Source: Streptosporangiaceae bacterium NEAU-GS5 (GTDB taxonomy: Bacteria > Actinomycetota > Actinomycetes > Streptosporangiales > Streptosporangiaceae). Taken from it: DNA of 64,000 nt. Under the pieces are notes generated by a model. That model was not told where the DNA came from, made no database searches, and was given only the letters and a program-made list of their open reading frames with translations. Location: assembly GCA_017592665.1 (NCBI GenBank), contig JAGFNW010000005.1, forward strand, positions 1 to 64,000. The letters run 5' to 3'. Both the position numbers and the translations under genes were made by a program. Positions 38,523-60,282 of the stretch are shown here, piece by piece; positions within the stretch are counted from its first letter, which is position 1; each line of letters begins with the position of its first letter.

Positions 38523-39491
38523 ATGGGACGGTCGGTTGGTGTGGATGTCGTGGTGGTCGGGGAGCCTCTTGTGGAGTTCTCGGCCGATCGGGCGCTGGGC
38601 GAGGCCGAGGTGTTCCGGCTGTCGTTCTCGGGGGACGCGCTCAACGCGTCGGTGGCCGCGGCCGCGGCGGGAGCCCACGTGGCGCTGGTCACCCGCGTCG
38701 GCAGGGACGAGTTCGGCGAACGGCTGATCGCGTTCGCGGCCGCGCACGGCGTGCATACCGCCTGGATGCGGCCGGGCGACGGCTCGACGGGCGCGTACGC
38801 CGTGGGGGCCGACCCGACCGGGTCGCGCGCCTTCGCCTACCTCCGTGCCGCTTCGGCCGCGACGCGGATGACGGCCGACGACGTCGACGACTCCCCCGTC
38901 GCCGAGGCGCGGGTGGTGCTGCTGTCCGGGGTCGGCGCGGCCGTGGCCGAGCCGACCGTGCTGCGCGCCGCCGAGGTCGCCTCCGGCCGCGTCGTGTACG
39001 ACCCGAACTACCGCGGCAGGCTGACCACGCCCGAGGCGGCCCGCCGCGTGCTGGAGCGGGTGGCCCCGCACGCGGCGCTGGTCACCCCGTCCTGCCCGGG
39101 CGACAGCGGCCCCCTGTTCGGGACGGACGACCCGGACGAGACGGCCGGGAAGGCGCTGGCGCTGGGCGCCCGCGCGGTGGCCGTCACGCGAGGACCGGAG
39201 GGCGTGCTGCTCCGCTATGGGGGCGGAGCGGGGGCCGGCACGCCCTCCCTCGAGCATGTGCCGGCGTTTCCGGCCGGGCGGATCGTCGACCAGACGGGTG
39301 CGGGCGACGCCTTCGCGGGCGCGCTGTCGGCGTGGCTGGCCCGCGGCGCCGACCTTGCGGAGGCCGTGCGCGCGGGGGCCGCGGCCGCCGCGGTCTCGCT
39401 CGAAGGGCAGGGCGGCACGGGCCGGGTCGCGGCCCGTGCCGAAATCGAGGCGCTGCTCCAGATGGCTATGCCAGGCGCGGAGACCTTCTGA
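38523..39491 (+). CDS. kdgK: 2-Keto-3-deoxygluconate kinase (PfkB family)
   Basis: KdgK phosphorylates 2-keto-3-deoxygluconate (KDG) to KDPG, the step after KduD in uronate breakdown. The 322-residue protein has the PfkB N-terminal GDALNASVAAAAAG block, and the C-terminal signature DQTGAGDAFAGAL, where the second Asp (about residue 262) is the catalytic base. Nearby kduI and kduD make KDG kinase the best reading among PfkB sugar kinases. It ends inside the last 26 bases of the convergent permease gene. No KDPG aldolase is in the window. Confidence 0.8.
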   Translation: MGRSVGVDVVVVGEPLVEFSADRALGEAEVFRLSFSGDALNASVAAAAAGAHVALVTRVGRDEFGERLIAFAAAHGVHTAWMRPGDGSTGAYAVGADPTGSRAFAYLRAASAATRMTADDVDDSPVAEARVVLLSGVGAAVAEPTVLRAAEVASGRVVYDPNYRGRLTTPEAARRVLERVAPHAALVTPSCPGDSGPLFGTDDPDETAGKALALGARAVAVTRGPEGVLLRYGGGAGAGTPSLEHVPAFPAGRIVDQTGAGDAFAGALSAWLARGADLAEAVRAGAAAAAVSLEGQGGTGRVAARAEIEALLQMAMPGAETF

Positions 39492-40824
39492 GCGCCCAGT
39501 AGAGGCCGAAGGAGATCAGGAAACCGACTTCGAAGGCGATGTCACCCACGCCGGGGACCTTCGAAGGCACGACTCCGACGTACTTCTGCTGGTTGGAGAA
39601 GAGCCACACCGACAGCACCACGCCGACGACCATGGCGATGGGCCCGGCCCAGTTGGTGTAGGACCGGTCGTACAACGGCCCGGGGTCGCGCCGCAGATAC
39701 CAGTCGGCCAGGATCACGCCCAGCCACGGCCCGATCCAATACGAGATGACCAGCAGGAACGCCTCGTACTTCGAACCCGCGTCGGACAGCCCGGACAGCG
39801 CCACCAGGAAGCCGACCACGCCGCAGACCAGCGCCGTCATCGCGCGGCGGAGCGTAAGCGGGAGCCGTACGCCCATGGTGAGCAGCGACATCGAGCCCGA
39901 GTAGACGTTGAGGGCGTTGGCCGAGATGGCGCCGAGCGCGATGGCGAGCAGCGTCAGGTTGGCCACCACCGACGGCAGGTGGGAGGTGAACGCCGTGGTC
40001 GGCTGGCCCATCGCGTCGCCGCCGATGGTGACCGAGGCCGCGCCCACGACCTCGAGGACCACGGCCGACACGAACACTCCGGCACCGGCCGCCAGGCCGA
40101 CCGCGGTCTTGGAGGAGCCCGGCGGCAGGTAGCGGGTGTAGTCGGCGGCGTAGGGGTTCCAGCCGGCGGTGTAGCCGAAGCAGGCGCCGACCGTGAGCAG
40201 GAATCCGCCGATCCCGCCGCCGGCGCCGGCGTATCCAGGCGAGGCCTTGGACAGCACGATCACCGACGCGATCAGGAAGATCAGCGCGAGCACCGGGAAC
40301 GCGTACTTCTCGAAGGCCTGCACCAGATTGTGCCCGAAGTAGCCGAGCGTGATCATGATGGCCACGACGATCACCAGGCAGAGCCAGCCGGGGAGGCCCG
40401 TGAGCGTGTTCAGGGCCAGCGCGCCGCTGACGCTGTTGACCGCGAACCAGCCGATCCCGGCGGCCAGGGTGTTGAACGCGGACGGCAGCAGGTTGCCCCA
40501 GTAGCCGAACGCCGACCGGCCTAAGACCATCTGCGGCACGCCCACCGACGGGCCGCGCGCCGACAGCAGTCCTTGCGAGACCGCGCCGAGGCCGGTGCCG
40601 ACGATGATCGCCAGCACGGCCTGCCAGAAGCTCAGCTGGAAAACCGCCACCGCGAGCACGCCGAGGAAGACCGTGGCGAACTCGAGGTTGGGCGACATCC
40701 AGGTCCAGAAGAGGTCGCGCGGCCGCCCGTGCCGCTCCTCCAGGGGGATGAACTCGATGCCGCCCGGCTCGACGGCAGTGATCTTGTCTCCGTATTGGCC
40801 TTCTCGGACGTCGATGGTGCTCAT
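39466..40824 (-). CDS. NCS1-family nucleobase permease (FCY2-like)
   Basis: A 452-residue membrane protein with about twelve helices, of the purine-cytosine permease type. Motifs include WTWMSPNLEFATVFLGVLA near the first helix and GWNPYAADYTRYLPP in the middle, which resemble fungal FCY2 more than generic NCS1 proteins. It is the last gene of a three-gene minus-strand unit: cytosine deaminase, iron/2-oxoglutarate oxygenase, permease. The gap to the oxygenase stop is seven bases. Uptake of cytosine, 5-methylcytosine or thymine is inferred from the operon. Its end overlaps the end of kdgK by 26 bases. Confidence 0.85.
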   Translation of the reverse strand: MSTIDVREGQYGDKITAVEPGGIEFIPLEERHGRPRDLFWTWMSPNLEFATVFLGVLAVAVFQLSFWQAVLAIIVGTGLGAVSQGLLSARGPSVGVPQMVLGRSAFGYWGNLLPSAFNTLAAGIGWFAVNSVSGALALNTLTGLPGWLCLVIVVAIMITLGYFGHNLVQAFEKYAFPVLALIFLIASVIVLSKASPGYAGAGGGIGGFLLTVGACFGYTAGWNPYAADYTRYLPPGSSKTAVGLAAGAGVFVSAVVLEVVGAASVTIGGDAMGQPTTAFTSHLPSVVANLTLLAIALGAISANALNVYSGSMSLLTMGVRLPLTLRRAMTALVCGVVGFLVALSGLSDAGSKYEAFLLVISYWIGPWLGVILADWYLRRDPGPLYDRSYTNWAGPIAMVVGVVLSVWLFSNQQKYVGVVPSKVPGVGDIAFEVGFLISFGLYWALRRSPRLA

Positions 40825-40831
40825 GCAGTGC

Positions 40832-41770
40832 TCATACGGTGATCGCTCTCAACTTCTCGAGCAGATAGTCGGACGCCCTGACCGGGGAGTGCACGGACGT
40901 GCCCACAGGGAGGGACTCGACCTGGGCGTTGGGATTGCACTCGTAGAAATAGATGAGCGAGACGAGCTCTTCGTCGGGCGCGCTCGCGTCGGGGGGCAGC
41001 ACCCGATGCCGGTTGGACAGCCAGCGGTCGCCGGTCCAGCGGGCCAGCAGGTCGCCGATGTTGATCGTGAAGGAGTCGTCGACGTAGGGGGCGTCCTCCC
41101 AGGCGCCGTCCGCGAACACCTGCAGCCCGCCGACGCCCGGCTGCCGGTCGAGGATGGTGACGGTCCCGAAGTCGGTGTGCGGGCCGATCCTGAACTGGCC
41201 CGGCTCGGGCGGCCCGAGCAGCGACATGGGCGGATACCAGTTGATGTTCATGGTGTACGAGGGATGGGTGGCCGCGTCGAGGAACACCCTCGGCAGGCCG
41301 AGCGCCGTGCCGCAGATGAGCAGCAGTTCGTCGGCCAGCCGCCGCATGCGCGCCAGATATTCGGTGACCAGCGGCTCCAGCTCCGGGATCTCGCCCGGAT
41401 AGACGTTGTCGAGGAACCACACGGGGTCGTGCTCGGGGTCGTCCATCCGCTCGTCGGCGCCGACGGCGAAGGTCTCCTTGAGGTCGGGCGGGGTGGGCGT
41501 GCCCTCGGCGTAGCCGTTGGCCTCGGCGCCCGGCGGCAGCCAGCCCCGCCCGCCGATGGTCACCGCGTAGGGCTGTTTCTCCTTGTACGGCAGGGCGAAG
41601 AAGCGCTTGGCGGCGTCCCGGATGTCCGCGCGGAGCGCGGTGGGCACGCCGTGGCCCGTGACCAGCAGGAAGCCGACGTCGCAGAGGGCGGCGTCCACCT
41701 CCTCCGGGGCGGTAACCCGGTCGCCTTCGAACCAGCTTGTCAGGTCGACGATCGGAACACGCGTCGTCAT
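40832..41770 (-). CDS. IPNS-family iron/2-oxoglutarate oxygenase (thymine hydroxylase-like candidate)
   Basis: This 312-residue protein has the jelly-roll oxygenase fold of the isopenicillin N synthase family. The N-terminal DIOX_N region is IVDLTSWFEG and GFLLVTGHGVP; iron ligands are His198 and Asp200 (GPHTDFG) and His255 (NRHRVL). The RxS motif that usually binds 2-oxoglutarate appears altered: Ser271 is present but Leu stands where Arg is expected. The ATG at 41770 overlaps the deaminase stop (ATGA). Fungal thymine-7-hydroxylase belongs to this family and is the best functional idea given a deaminase and a base permease on either side; that is inference. Confidence 0.78.
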   Translation of the reverse strand: MTTRVPIVDLTSWFEGDRVTAPEEVDAALCDVGFLLVTGHGVPTALRADIRDAAKRFFALPYKEKQPYAVTIGGRGWLPPGAEANGYAEGTPTPPDLKETFAVGADERMDDPEHDPVWFLDNVYPGEIPELEPLVTEYLARMRRLADELLLICGTALGLPRVFLDAATHPSYTMNINWYPPMSLLGPPEPGQFRIGPHTDFGTVTILDRQPGVGGLQVFADGAWEDAPYVDDSFTINIGDLLARWTGDRWLSNRHRVLPPDASAPDEELVSLIYFYECNPNAQVESLPVGTSVHSPVRASDYLLEKLRAITV

Positions 41771-42207
41771 CTGCCGATGTCCTCGTTCCACAGGTCAGGA
41801 AATTTGGTGATGAACTCGGTCATGAGGTCGACGCACTCCTGGGAGTCGACGACCTCGACCTCGACCCCGTTCGCGGCCAGCCACTCGTGCTGGCCCATGA
41901 ACGTGCGGCACTCCCCCACGACCAGGCGGGAGATGCCGAACTGGCGGATCAGGCCGGAGCAGTACCAGCACGGGGACAACGTGGTGACCATGGTGGTGCC
42001 GCGGTAGGTGCGCTGGCGCCCGGCGTCGCGGAAGGCCGCCGTCTCGCCGTGAATGGACGGATCGCCGTCCTGGACCCTGCGGTTGTGGCCGCGGCCCAGC
42101 AGCTCGCCCTCCGGGCCGTACAACGCGGCCCCGATCGGAATGCCGCCGTCGGCGTATCCTCTCCGGGCCTCCTCGATCGCCACCACCAGCAGGTCTTCGC
42201 CGCGCAT
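41767..42207 (-). CDS. Yeast-type cytosine deaminase
   Basis: The 146-residue protein matches yeast cytosine deaminase (FCY1) along its length. Zinc ligands and catalytic Glu are His53-Gly-Glu55 (IHGETAAF) and Cys80/Cys83 (SPCWYC). Residues that hold free cytosine in the yeast enzyme also appear conserved: Asn42 in GRGHNRR, Phe103, and the C-terminal Trp140/Asp143 in LWNEDIGR (yeast WFEDIGE). This argues for a free-base deaminase rather than a nucleoside or tRNA deaminase. Bacteria normally use the unrelated CodA. It is first in the operon with the oxygenase and permease; a GATAGT at -12 suggests a leaderless mRNA. Confidence 0.85.
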   Translation of the reverse strand: MRGEDLLVVAIEEARRGYADGGIPIGAALYGPEGELLGRGHNRRVQDGDPSIHGETAAFRDAGRQRTYRGTTMVTTLSPCWYCSGLIRQFGISRLVVGECRTFMGQHEWLAANGVEVEVVDSQECVDLMTEFITKFPDLWNEDIGR

Positions 42208-43073: not shown

Positions 43074-43841
43074 TCAACGGGCCAGCCAGCCGCCGTCGAC
43101 GGCCAGGAGATGCCCATTGACGTAGTCGGAGGCGGGCGAGGCCAGGAACACGGCGGCGCCCACGAGGTCGTCCGGCCGCCCCCACCGGCCGGCCGGGATG
43201 CGCGCGCGGATGGCCGGCTCGCGGTCGGCGTCCTCGCGCAGCACCATCGTGTTGCTGGTCTCGATGTAGCCGGGGGCGATGCCGTTGACCTGCACGCCCA
43301 GGGGCGCCCACTCGACCGCGAGGGCCTTGGTCAGCCCCGCGACGCCGTGCTTGGCCGCCGTGTAGCCGACCACGTTGACGCCTCCCTGGAACGACAGCAT
43401 CGACGCGATCATGATGATCTTGCCGTGGCCGCGTTCCAGCATGGGCCCCGCGACCGCCTTGCTGAGCAGGAAGACCGCGTCCAGATCCACGTCGAGCACG
43501 GTCGACCAGTCGTCGTAGGTCTGGTCGATGGCCGGGCCGCGCCGGATCACGCCGGCGTTGTTGACCAGGATGTCGATCTGGTGCGCCCCGAGGACGTCGG
43601 CCACGGCGTCCGGGATCACGGCCGGGCGTGAAAGATCCAGGATCCACCGGTACGCCTTGCGGCCGGCCGCCTTGACCTCGGCCTCCACCTCGTCGAGGTC
43701 GTCGCGGTGGCCGTGCAGCACGAGATCGGCGCCGGCCCGGGCCAGCCCGGCCGCGACCGCCCGGCCGATCCCCGTGCGCGCGCCGGTCACCAGCGCCGTC
43801 CGGCCCTCGAGCGAGAAATCCCCGAGTACGTGCTCGGTCAC
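43074..43841 (-). CDS. kduD: 2-Dehydro-3-deoxy-D-gluconate 5-dehydrogenase KduD (SDR)
   Basis: KduD reduces 2,5-diketo-3-deoxygluconate to KDG with NAD(P)H. The 255-residue short-chain dehydrogenase has the cofactor motif TGARTGIGRAVA, NNAG, a catalytic Ser in ASMLSFQGG and the Tyr-x3-Lys in GYTAAKHG. The text FSLEGRTALVTGARTGIG and GVIRRGPAI are typical of KduD. The GTG at 43841 overlaps the kduI stop (GTGA), so the pair is coupled; the frame runs on upstream but not as this gene. Confidence 0.88.
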   Translation of the reverse strand: MTEHVLGDFSLEGRTALVTGARTGIGRAVAAGLARAGADLVLHGHRDDLDEVEAEVKAAGRKAYRWILDLSRPAVIPDAVADVLGAHQIDILVNNAGVIRRGPAIDQTYDDWSTVLDVDLDAVFLLSKAVAGPMLERGHGKIIMIASMLSFQGGVNVVGYTAAKHGVAGLTKALAVEWAPLGVQVNGIAPGYIETSNTMVLREDADREPAIRARIPAGRWGRPDDLVGAAVFLASPASDYVNGHLLAVDGGWLAR

Positions 43842-44647
43842 CGCATGGCCTCGATCGCGACCGGCTCGACGTCCTCGTACGCCTGGTTCTCCCCGCCCAT
43901 GGCCCAGACGAAGGAGTAGCTGCGCGTGCCGAAGCCGCAGTGCACCGACCAGGGCGGCGAGATGACCGCCTGCCGGTCGGACAGCACGAGATTCCTGGTC
44001 TCGTCCGGCTCCCCCATGAGATGGAAGATCCGATGGCCTTCCGGAAGGTCGAAGTAGAAGTAGCACTCGGTGCGGCGCTCGTGGACGTGGCACGGCATGG
44101 TGTTCCACATGCTGCCGGGCTCGAGCACGGTCACGCCGAGCACGAGCTGGCAGCTCTGGATGCCCTTGGCGTGGATGTACTTGTAGATGGTCCGCTCGTT
44201 GGAGCCTTCGATCGAGCCGAGCCGTACGGGCTCGGCGTCGGCGAGGCCGGCACGCGTGGTCGGATGATGCGTGTGGGCGGGGGTGGAGACGAGGTAGAAC
44301 TCGCCCTCCTCGAAGACGACGTCCTGCGCGCCGCGGCCCACGTAGAGGCATTCCTTGTTGCCCAGGGGATACGACCGGCCGTCGACGGTCACCGTGCCCG
44401 GCCCGCCGATGTTGACGACGCCGAGCTCCCGGCGCTCCAGAAAGTAGGTGGCGCGCAGCTGGTCGGGGCAGGGCAGCGCCACCGGGGCCGTGGCCCGGAC
44501 GCCTCCGAGGATGAGCCGGTCCTCCATGGAGTAGACGAGGCCGACGTCCGCCGAGTCGTATAAGCCAGGCACGACGAACCGCTCGCGCAGCCGCTCGGTG
44601 TCCATCCCCGGCACCTGGTCGGGCGCCGTCGCGTGCCGTACCTCCAT
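43838..44647 (-). CDS. kduI: 5-Dehydro-4-deoxy-D-glucuronate isomerase KduI
   Basis: KduI converts 5-keto-4-deoxyuronate, made from unsaturated uronates released by polysaccharide lyases, to 2,5-diketo-3-deoxygluconate. The 269-residue protein has the family patterns RATYFLERRELGVVNIGG, YKYIHAKGIQSCQLVLGVT, and the metal-ligand block CHVHERRTECYFYFDLPEG. GGAAGG lies about eight bases before the ATG at 44647, so this is preferred to a GTG six bases earlier. It is the first gene of kduI-kduD-iclR. Confidence 0.92.
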   Translation of the reverse strand: MEVRHATAPDQVPGMDTERLRERFVVPGLYDSADVGLVYSMEDRLILGGVRATAPVALPCPDQLRATYFLERRELGVVNIGGPGTVTVDGRSYPLGNKECLYVGRGAQDVVFEEGEFYLVSTPAHTHHPTTRAGLADAEPVRLGSIEGSNERTIYKYIHAKGIQSCQLVLGVTVLEPGSMWNTMPCHVHERRTECYFYFDLPEGHRIFHLMGEPDETRNLVLSDRQAVISPPWSVHCGFGTRSYSFVWAMGGENQAYEDVEPVAIEAMR

Positions 44648-44661
44648 AGCCACACCTTCCC

Positions 44662-59367: not shown

Positions 59368-60282
59368 TCAATCTCCTAGCTTGAGGCCGCTCGCGACGAG
59401 GTCGGCGCGGAGCAGCGCGATTTGGTCCGGCGTCGCGCCGACAAGCGGGAGCCGTACGGACCCCGCGTCCTGGCCGACCAGCCGGAGAGCCGCCTTGGCC
59501 ATGATCGCCCCGCCGGCCCGCGTCATGATCCCGGACACGACCGGCAGCAGCCGCTGGTGGATCTCCAGCGCGCGCCCGACCTCCCCGGACCGGTAGAGCG
59601 CGATCATGGTGGCCAGGTCGGCGCCGGCCACGTGGCCGATCACGCTGACGAAGCCGGCCGCCCCCACGGACAGCCACGGCAGGTTGAGCGTGTCGTCGCC
59701 CGAGTAGAAGACGAGGTCGGTCGAGATCATCACCTGGGAGCTGGTGAACAGGTCGGCCTTGGCGTCCTTGACGGCAACGATCCGCGCGTGCTGGGACAGC
59801 CGGATCAACGTCTCCGGCTGGATGGGGACGCCGGAGCGCCCCGGAATGTCGTAGAGCATCGCCGGGAGCCCGGTCGCCTCGGCGACGGCCCAGAAGTGCT
59901 GATAGAGCCCTTCCTGCGGCGGCTTGTTGTAATACGGCGTGACCAGGAGCACGGCGTGCGCGCCCGCCCGCTCGGCGGCCCGCGCCAGCTCGATGGAGTG
60001 GCGGGTGTCGTTCGTGCCGACTCCGGCGACGACGGTGGCGCGGTCGCCGACCGCGTCGAGCACCGCCCGCAGGATGCGGGTCTTCTCCTCGTCCGTGGTG
60101 GTCGGGGACTCGCCGGTGGTGCCGCTGACGATCAGGCCGTCGTTGCGCTGCTCGTCCACCAGATATGCGGCCAGCCGCTGAACGGCCGCGTAGTCGACCG
60201 TGCCGTCGGCGGAGAAGGGGGTGACCATCGCGGTCAGCATGCGGCCGAAGGGGGCGTCGGAGGTTCTGGTTGGCGATGCCAT
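59368..60282 (-). CDS. dapA: 4-Hydroxy-tetrahydrodipicolinate synthase
   Basis: DapA condenses pyruvate with aspartate semialdehyde in lysine and diaminopimelate synthesis. The 304-residue protein has MLTAMVTPF, VSGTTGESPTTT, the catalytic Tyr in LYDIPGRSG and the Schiff-base Lys in IVAVKDAKAD (about residue 175). The ATG at 60282 follows a TAGCGT eight bases upstream that could be a -10 of a leaderless mRNA; a longer frame upstream is not conserved-looking. The thyX gene that often precedes dapA in actinomycetes is not next to it here. Confidence 0.93.
   Translation of the reverse strand: MASPTRTSDAPFGRMLTAMVTPFSADGTVDYAAVQRLAAYLVDEQRNDGLIVSGTTGESPTTTDEEKTRILRAVLDAVGDRATVVAGVGTNDTRHSIELARAAERAGAHAVLLVTPYYNKPPQEGLYQHFWAVAEATGLPAMLYDIPGRSGVPIQPETLIRLSQHARIVAVKDAKADLFTSSQVMISTDLVFYSGDDTLNLPWLSVGAAGFVSVIGHVAGADLATMIALYRSGEVGRALEIHQRLLPVVSGIMTRAGGAIMAKAALRLVGQDAGSVRLPLVGATPDQIALLRADLVASGLKLGD

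Follow-up and report, generated by a model that had tools for sequence, protein, structure and literature searches.

In Escherichia coli, the permease CodB and the deaminase CodA import and deaminate cytosine, and CodA has a fold unrelated to that of FCY1-type deaminases. Other described systems to be compared here are the yeast cytosine deaminase FCY1 (PDB 1ysd, 1uaq), fungal thymine-7-hydroxylase (T7H; PDB 5c3p-5c3s) and the Klebsiella 5-methylcytosine deaminase Kpn00632 (PMC6186785). An earlier note on a 64,000-nucleotide stretch of Streptosporangiaceae bacterium NEAU-GS5 (contig JAGFNW010000005.1; hereafter the window) had proposed that three coupled genes at 39466-42207 form a "fungal-style" operon for the salvage of cytosine and thymine. 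Our analysis confirmed the open reading frames, their families, and their overlap and spacing. The best explanation of the whole, which we consider probable, is a pyrimidine-base utilization cassette that converts cytosine or 5-methylcytosine to uracil or thymine and then oxidizes the product. Its predicted overall import and deamination are the same as those of CodA/CodB; it contains an enzyme of the FCY1 type and none of the Kpn00632 type. The features of the locus are as follows.

41767..42207, minus strand: predicted FCY1-type cytosine deaminase, 146 amino acids (PDB phmmer search, invariant residues, tree)
40832..41770, minus strand: IPNS-fold Fe(II) oxygenase, 312 amino acids, ATG start at 41770 (PF14226 and PF03171, AlphaFold model)
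39466..40824, minus strand: NCS1 permease, 452 amino acids (PF02133)
41767..41770, minus strand: ATGA overlap of the deaminase stop and the oxygenase start (sequence)
41171..41179, minus strand: oxygenase H198-x-D200, two of the three iron ligands (invariant; T7H His214 and Asp216)
41006..41008, minus strand: oxygenase H255, the third iron ligand (invariant; T7H His271)
41144..41146, minus strand: codon of R209, an arginine peculiar to the oxygenase clade and the candidate relocated anchor of 2-oxoglutarate (2OG) (alignment rows)
40964..40966, minus strand: codon of L269, the site of the 2OG-binding RXS arginine in other homologues (alignment rows)

The ATGA overlap suggests translational coupling of the deaminase and the oxygenase; the oxygenase might instead begin at an earlier GTG, 41791, which would lengthen it, and the gap between oxygenase and permease is 7 bases. 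The deaminase matched PF00383 with 70.8 bits (cut-off 25), and the oxygenase matched PF14226 with 70.0 bits (cut-off 27.3) and PF03171 with 62.4 bits (cut-off 23), while no NCBIfam model exceeded its cut-off for any of the three proteins. In the proposed mechanism, the NCS1 permease would import a cytosine-type base, and the FCY1-type zinc deaminase would hydrolyse its 4-amino group and release ammonia, giving uracil from cytosine and/or thymine from 5-methylcytosine. The product of deamination would then be oxidized by the non-haem iron oxygenase; the most probable site is the 5-methyl group of thymine, which would give 5-hydroxymethyluracil and perhaps more oxidized forms. Here we infer which bases are substrates, which way transport runs, in what order the reactions occur and that 2OG is used. 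The earlier interpretation is partly supported: its outline of transport of a cytosine-type base, deamination and oxidation appears right as predicted chemistry, and its T7H step is unproven.

The recurrence of the three-gene order in other actinomycetes, a check that the earlier note had called for, was examined in three sets of deaminase loci. The named loci were the 80 top-scoring ones among 554 confirmed relatives and are thus biased to close kin of the window deaminase, with stretches mostly of 16 kb (usually 8 kb on each side; shorter in 12 of the 80). The family loci are the 29 best in other genomes of the same family, where 78 of 200 genomes, our own included, had a deaminase match; their stretches measured 3.4 kb. 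The phylum set comprises 20 close deaminase loci, the window among them. The results showed that the order does recur. An oxygenase was present at 47 of the 80 named loci, lying on the same strand within 300 bp at 45 and downstream at 44 of these. Oxygenase and permease family occurred together at 23 named loci, the permease without the oxygenase at 2 and a CodB-like permease at 3, and 28 had none of the three. The corresponding numbers for the family loci were 16 (oxygenase and permease), 1 (permease alone), 3 (CodB-like) and 9 (none), with the oxygenase on the same strand within 300 bp at 16 of 29; in the phylum set, five loci had the oxygenase at such a distance and strand and five a CodB-like permease. 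A divergent PucR-type gene was found no more than 400 bp upstream at 23 named loci, 21 of which had the oxygenase, and at nine of the 29 family loci, all with the oxygenase (one PucR-type gene was checked by Pfam). The window has an IclR gene upstream in its place.

The linkage was also tested in reverse. Among 296 genomes of the phylum, five oxygenases scored above 480 bits, the window's included, and all five were adjacent to the deaminase; none of the 25 further loci returned (a single one of about 350 bits, the others not above 222) had the deaminase within 1.5 kb on each side. When 394 genomes of the class were sampled, the deaminase accompanied 17 of 25 further oxygenase loci returned (stretches of about 3.9 kb); two of the eight deaminase-less loci were high-scoring (L221 and L223), and six carried another residue at position 175. 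It is highly improbable that a cytosine deaminase merely lies beside an unrelated oxygenase and transporter by chance. The absence of the oxygenase from the stretch at 33 of the 80 named loci speaks for such an accident, and also against a cassette, whereas the adjacency in five of five reverse cases, the ATGA overlap, the persistence of the trio under differing gene orders (the permease leads in L229, L259 and further loci) and the replacement of the deaminase by a non-homologue, described below, speak against it. Because the same gene order recurs in other genera, the trio is not a chance assembly.

The deaminase was compared with its characterized relatives. In the PDB phmmer search it matched yeast cytosine deaminase with 121 bits, as against 46.5 for the best TadA and 29.4 for guanosine deaminase. 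As the earlier note had claimed, all counterparts of the yeast FCY1 residues N51, H62, E64, C91, C94, F114, W152 and D155 are present; in window numbering they are the zinc set H53/C80/C83, E55, N42, F103, W140 and D143. We take N51, F114, W152 and D155 of yeast FCY1 to be the residues that bind cytosine. H53, the proton shuttle E55, C80 and C83 were invariant across a 16-row alignment. In a residue table and tree of 41 bacterial rows and yeast FCY1, the counterparts of F114, W152 and D155 were kept in every one of the 28 close rows and likewise in L181-L187, seven rows of the FCY1 type, and that of N51 in every row except L173 (Asp). Five of the six TadA-like or distant rows, which include the second hit of our own genome (L002), had Lys at 114 and lacked W152 and D155; the sixth (L152, 41 bits) read F-W-H and missed only D155. 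These comparisons indicate that the window deaminase is FCY1-type. It groups with the FCY1-type rows rather than the TadA-like ones and scores far above the guanosine deaminases, so that the phylogeny held by the earlier note to be refuting was not found.

The window and yeast enzymes also share the C-terminal WxEDIG, and differ at the zinc cysteines (PCWYC in the window, PCDMC in yeast). In the tree, yeast FCY1 joined six rows from bacteria (100/98) and stood outside the bacterial clade of the cassette deaminases (99/98), a placement to be read with caution because the yeast row is a long branch. With scores of 159.8-279 bits (threshold about 160), FCY1-type deaminases occurred in 27 of the 296 phylum genomes, a sample that includes the genome of the window. 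The label "fungal-style" is accordingly misleading for what is a bacterial family, and we found no sign here that the deaminase is a fungal import.

The AlphaFold model of the oxygenase (pLDDT 93) was compared with known structures. Four T7H entries ranked top in VIA-align (Z 35.3, 35.0, 35.0 and 34.8), with TraH tied at 34.6 and 9ovh at 34.1; T7H 5c3p aligned over 288 residues with an rmsd of 2.2 and 25% identity (Z 35.3). By profile score, T7H came fifth, with 153 bits versus 195 for 9ovh. The oxygenase shares with T7H the fold, the iron triad (His214, Asp216 and His271 in T7H), which is invariant in its alignment, and the 2OG-site residues Tyr194 and Ser288, kept as Tyr179 and Ser271. The aromatics Tyr217 and Phe292, which sandwich the base in T7H, have counterparts in Phe201 and Phe275. 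In T7H, Arg286 contacts the C5-carboxylate of 2OG and Arg190 is vital for both 2OG and substrate, according to PMC4787775. The window oxygenase has Leu269 in place of Arg286.

Leu269 was combined with Arg209 in 70 of 70 oxygenase rows from cassettes (a number in which the window figures twice and named and unnamed loci may in part come from one genome), and in L126 as well, whereas the 25 other homologue rows, from 24 loci, all had Arg269 and none had Arg209. A second clade set (48 rows, 40 distinct, the window included, with two plasmid-borne relatives) likewise had Arg209 and Leu269 throughout. The clade forms a single branch (100/100 with L126), which implies that the arginine swap was one event. 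In the model, Arg209 lies at the end of the strand 204-208, two positions past Leu207; Leu207 is the counterpart of T7H Leu223, in a register that is approximate because of a one-residue alignment gap near 209. Leu223 touches 2OG in T7H (PMC4787775). Arg209 may have taken over the binding of the 2OG carboxylate, or else 2OG may not be used. The clade is well suited to testing how a 2OG site can be rebuilt, with one arginine lost and another gained, exceptionless in the rows examined.

The partners exchanged at related loci bear on the substrate. When the three locus sets were summed, CodB-like permease genes stood at none of 68 oxygenase loci versus 11 of 61 others, a contrast to be read as a trend rather than a test, as the sets overlap in organisms and lineages. 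Oxygenase-less pairing of the deaminase family with a CodB-type permease was also seen in L155 and L158; that of L158, the only one tested, scored 386 bits (equivalog cut-off 326). This partnership speaks for cytosine as a substrate. In a diverged oxygenase line, L251-L253, which has Gln at 175 and keeps the window's permease family, no FCY1-type gene was found in the stretches examined. The contig of L251 ends beside the permease, and in L252 and L253 a CodA-type cytosine deaminase adjoins instead (PRK07572, 488 and 454 bits, cut-off 438), 45 and 48% identical to E. coli CodA and with Ser for Asp at position 315. Residue 315 is reported to be Ser in a 5-methylcytosine deaminase, Kpn00632, and a change of the Asp in CodA to have given activity on 5-methylcytosine (PMC6186785). 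The replacement of the deaminase in L252 and L253 gives the strongest indication that 5-methylcytosine is processed by the version with the oxygenase, and it strengthens the earlier proposal of that substrate. Given a pyrimidine cassette, the chance that 5-methylcytosine and thymine are the physiological route of this version is, in our estimate, a little short of even. More tentatively, the cassette might serve 5-methylcytosine salvage or detoxification: the base would be imported and deaminated, and the methyl group of the resulting thymine oxidized, with the cofactor arginine moved from RXS to the strand after HxD or with a 2OG-independent oxygenase. It would then be a bacterial counterpart of fungal thymine salvage that arose two or more times, each time around a deaminase unrelated to the other. 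CodA-type genes with Ser315 were also seen in L273, L274 and L275, all of one genus, as candidate 5-methylcytosine deaminases; the stretches examined there held no oxygenase match.

Several observations weigh against the cassette reading. At the active site, Arg190 of T7H is replaced by Asn175, Asn87 by Gly/Glu74 (a gap in one alignment), Glu122 by Ala102 (Ser or Thr in relatives) and Asn294 by Glu277; the aromatics at 201 and 275 are common in the oxygenase family and not specific to T7H, which the tree did not resolve as sister of the clade. Among the 27 genomes in which the phylum sample showed an FCY1-type deaminase, only five had the oxygenase, and both PucR-type neighbours of the phylum set (2 of 20) stood at oxygenase-less loci. 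Swapped-arginine oxygenases exist too without an FCY1- or CodA-type deaminase or the two NCS1 transporter families to which the neighbour search was confined (e.g., L240-L250), and the arginine signature alone therefore does not imply pyrimidine chemistry. The CodA-type partners of L252 and L253 fall just below the PRK09230 cut-off of 483 (471 and 479 bits), and they are 74% identical to each other and therefore count as one event. Position 315 in 16 background CodA-type rows of the phylum sample, the distant one of our own genome included, was Asp in 11, Ser in 3 and Asn in 2, the three Ser rows coming from one genus. Finally, isoorotate decarboxylase lies downstream of T7H in two fungi (PMC6305744), and it was not recognized in a PDB comparison of seven of the nine PF04909 proteins in our genome; the window oxygenase has a deaminase as its partner in place of this decarboxylase.

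Of the earlier assignment of the oxygenase, the IPNS/T7H fold stands and the identity as T7H is not supported, since Arg190, Asn87, Glu122 and Arg286 are all replaced; with Asn294, five T7H residues are changed, and the arginine is at 209 instead. The missing contacts to the 5-substituent, Arg190 above all, would suit an enzyme that requires no methyl group, and the same deaminase and CodB linkage would fit a scheme in which cytosine is deaminated to uracil and the oxygenase then hydroxylates the ring rather than a methyl group, leading to 5-hydroxyuracil or in the direction of barbiturate, as an oxygenase-based entry to ring catabolism. We consider this unlikely, as the CodA-type partners carry Ser315, in contrast to the Asp of cytosine-specific CodA, and no barbiturase or dihydropyrimidinase was seen among the neighbours annotated, which were few.

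The diverged line carries a further neighbour. A gene of the FAD-GcvT type, like sarcosine oxidase and trimethylamine N-oxide demethylase, is divergent from the oxygenase at L253:700-3147 and L251:2936-5386. Fe/2OG enzymes often act as N-demethylases, and this demethylase-like neighbour is consistent with an oxygenase that converts N-methylated cytosines such as N4-methylcytosine to cytosine, which is then deaminated; a paper on E. coli proposes a still-unidentified N4-methylcytosine demethylase (PMC11898903). However, the FAD-GcvT gene was seen in only one genus (two genomes) and no residue evidence points towards an N-methyl substrate, and we regard N-demethylation as quite unlikely. Some CodA-like enzymes may deaminate creatinine, and one member of NCS1 is a permease for hydantoin. 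A route for a heterocycle other than a pyrimidine, such as creatinine going to N-methylhydantoin, would accord with the sarcosine-oxidase-like character of the same gene, and with a Sulfitobacter relative that adjoins a creatininase-family gene (79.6 bits, below the cut-off of 235). Such a route is very unlikely, as the FCY1-type residues are all kept and the deaminase family pairs with true CodB.

Returning to the pyrimidine cassette, the permease matched PF02133 with 145.8 bits (cut-off 23.5; profile positions 2-440 of 440). Its NCBIfam scores were 140.5 for ncs1 (cut-off 353), 84.6 for CytX and 43.3 for CodB (PRK11017), for which the equivalog cut-off of 326 was not reached; its family profile matched the CodB structure 7qoa with 29 bits. 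By these matches it is an NCS1 protein and not a CodB equivalog, unlike the true CodB paired elsewhere with deaminases of the window's family. Of the earlier description as an "FCY2-like permease", the NCS1 part holds and the FCY2-specific part is not supported, as the matches establish NCS1 membership only.

The onward path through isoorotate to uracil, envisaged by the earlier note, would lack its decarboxylase, which was not recognized among the seven candidates compared. Three of these, the best, were searched singly and four as a profile, the weak L119 and L120 being left out, and in the PDB they came closest to other amidohydrolases. Isoorotate decarboxylase was absent from the matches of the four-row profile within E 1e-5, and the reach of this profile to that enzyme is uncertain. 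Among the loci scanned, PF04909-like genes were also observed at L111, where the oxygenase is present, and at L175, where it is not; that of L111 lies about 6 kb from the deaminase and resembles L118 of our own genome (274 bits). In the window, 59797-60105 gave a weak PF04909 match of 24 bits, below the cut-off of 26.4. UbiD/UbiX-type genes near the pair in Streptomyces were considered as a decarboxylase for an oxidized base and set aside, as they were found with and without the oxygenase; we take these neighbour clusters to be a conserved menaquinone block. No close CodA was found in our own genome, whose best relative, a distant amidohydrolase, scored 239 bits versus 522-581 for eleven matches in the phylum. 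FCY1-type deaminases (27 of 296 genomes) and close CodA-type ones (11 of 296, above 500 bits) shared no genome; about one shared genome is expected by chance, and nothing was concluded from this.

If the proposed function is correct, many soil actinomycetes would possess a compact route for methylated cytosine, which is released by the turnover of methylated DNA. Bacterial catabolism of methylated cytosine seems little described in the open-licence PMC literature, searches of which gave no title or abstract opening that described the operon. An enzyme linked to pyrimidines can lie behind an unspecific annotation, for instance "2-oxoglutarate and iron-dependent oxygenase domain-containing protein".

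Related oxygenases were found in other settings. On the Rhodococcus qingshengii plasmid NZ_CP042916.1 (L212:4425-7966), a swapped oxygenase of 46% identity belongs to a run in which an NCS2 xanthine-permease-type gene (417 bits, cut-off 414) is followed by two IPNS-fold oxygenases, the canonical one in between; with merB and a restriction system nearby, it is possibly an island for purine- or pyrimidine-base oxidation. On the Sulfitobacter pontiacus plasmid AP027374.1 (L214:495-7709), a canonical relative, 36% identical to T7H, keeps the counterparts of Asn87, Arg190 and Arg286 and, judged by its residues, would be a better candidate for a bacterial T7H than the window enzyme. Its companions in what resembles an operon are a cytosine deaminase recognized by the PRK07583 model (588 bits, cut-off 403), an ABC transporter, an FAD-linked oxidase, two NAD(P)H dehydrogenases and the creatininase-family hydrolase. 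The pairing of a cytosine deaminase with an IPNS-fold oxygenase thus recurs, in favour of the cassette reading, and the arginine swap alone does not define the pathway. In L240-L246, L248 and L249 (eight genomes from a single genus and a ninth from a different family), the oxygenase has Arg209/Leu269 and Trp at 201, and its neighbours resemble, as a guess from sequence, a peptidase and a siderophore-type hydroxylase.

The surroundings of the trio in the window are of another kind. The permease gene converges on a plus-strand gene of the pfkB family (38523-39491), with which it shares its last 26 bases, and upstream, on the strand of the trio, lie the IclR regulator and kduD/kduI-type genes. 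A uronate-type cluster of kduD, kduI, IclR and the KDG-kinase-like pfkB (43074-44653 and 38523-39491) flanks the trio. Membership of the kdu genes in the cassette was considered and they were treated as neighbours. The Planotetraspora locus L032 is the sole named locus in which IclR, kduD, kduI and pfkB are also present, trio included; L006 shares IclR and kduD with the window.

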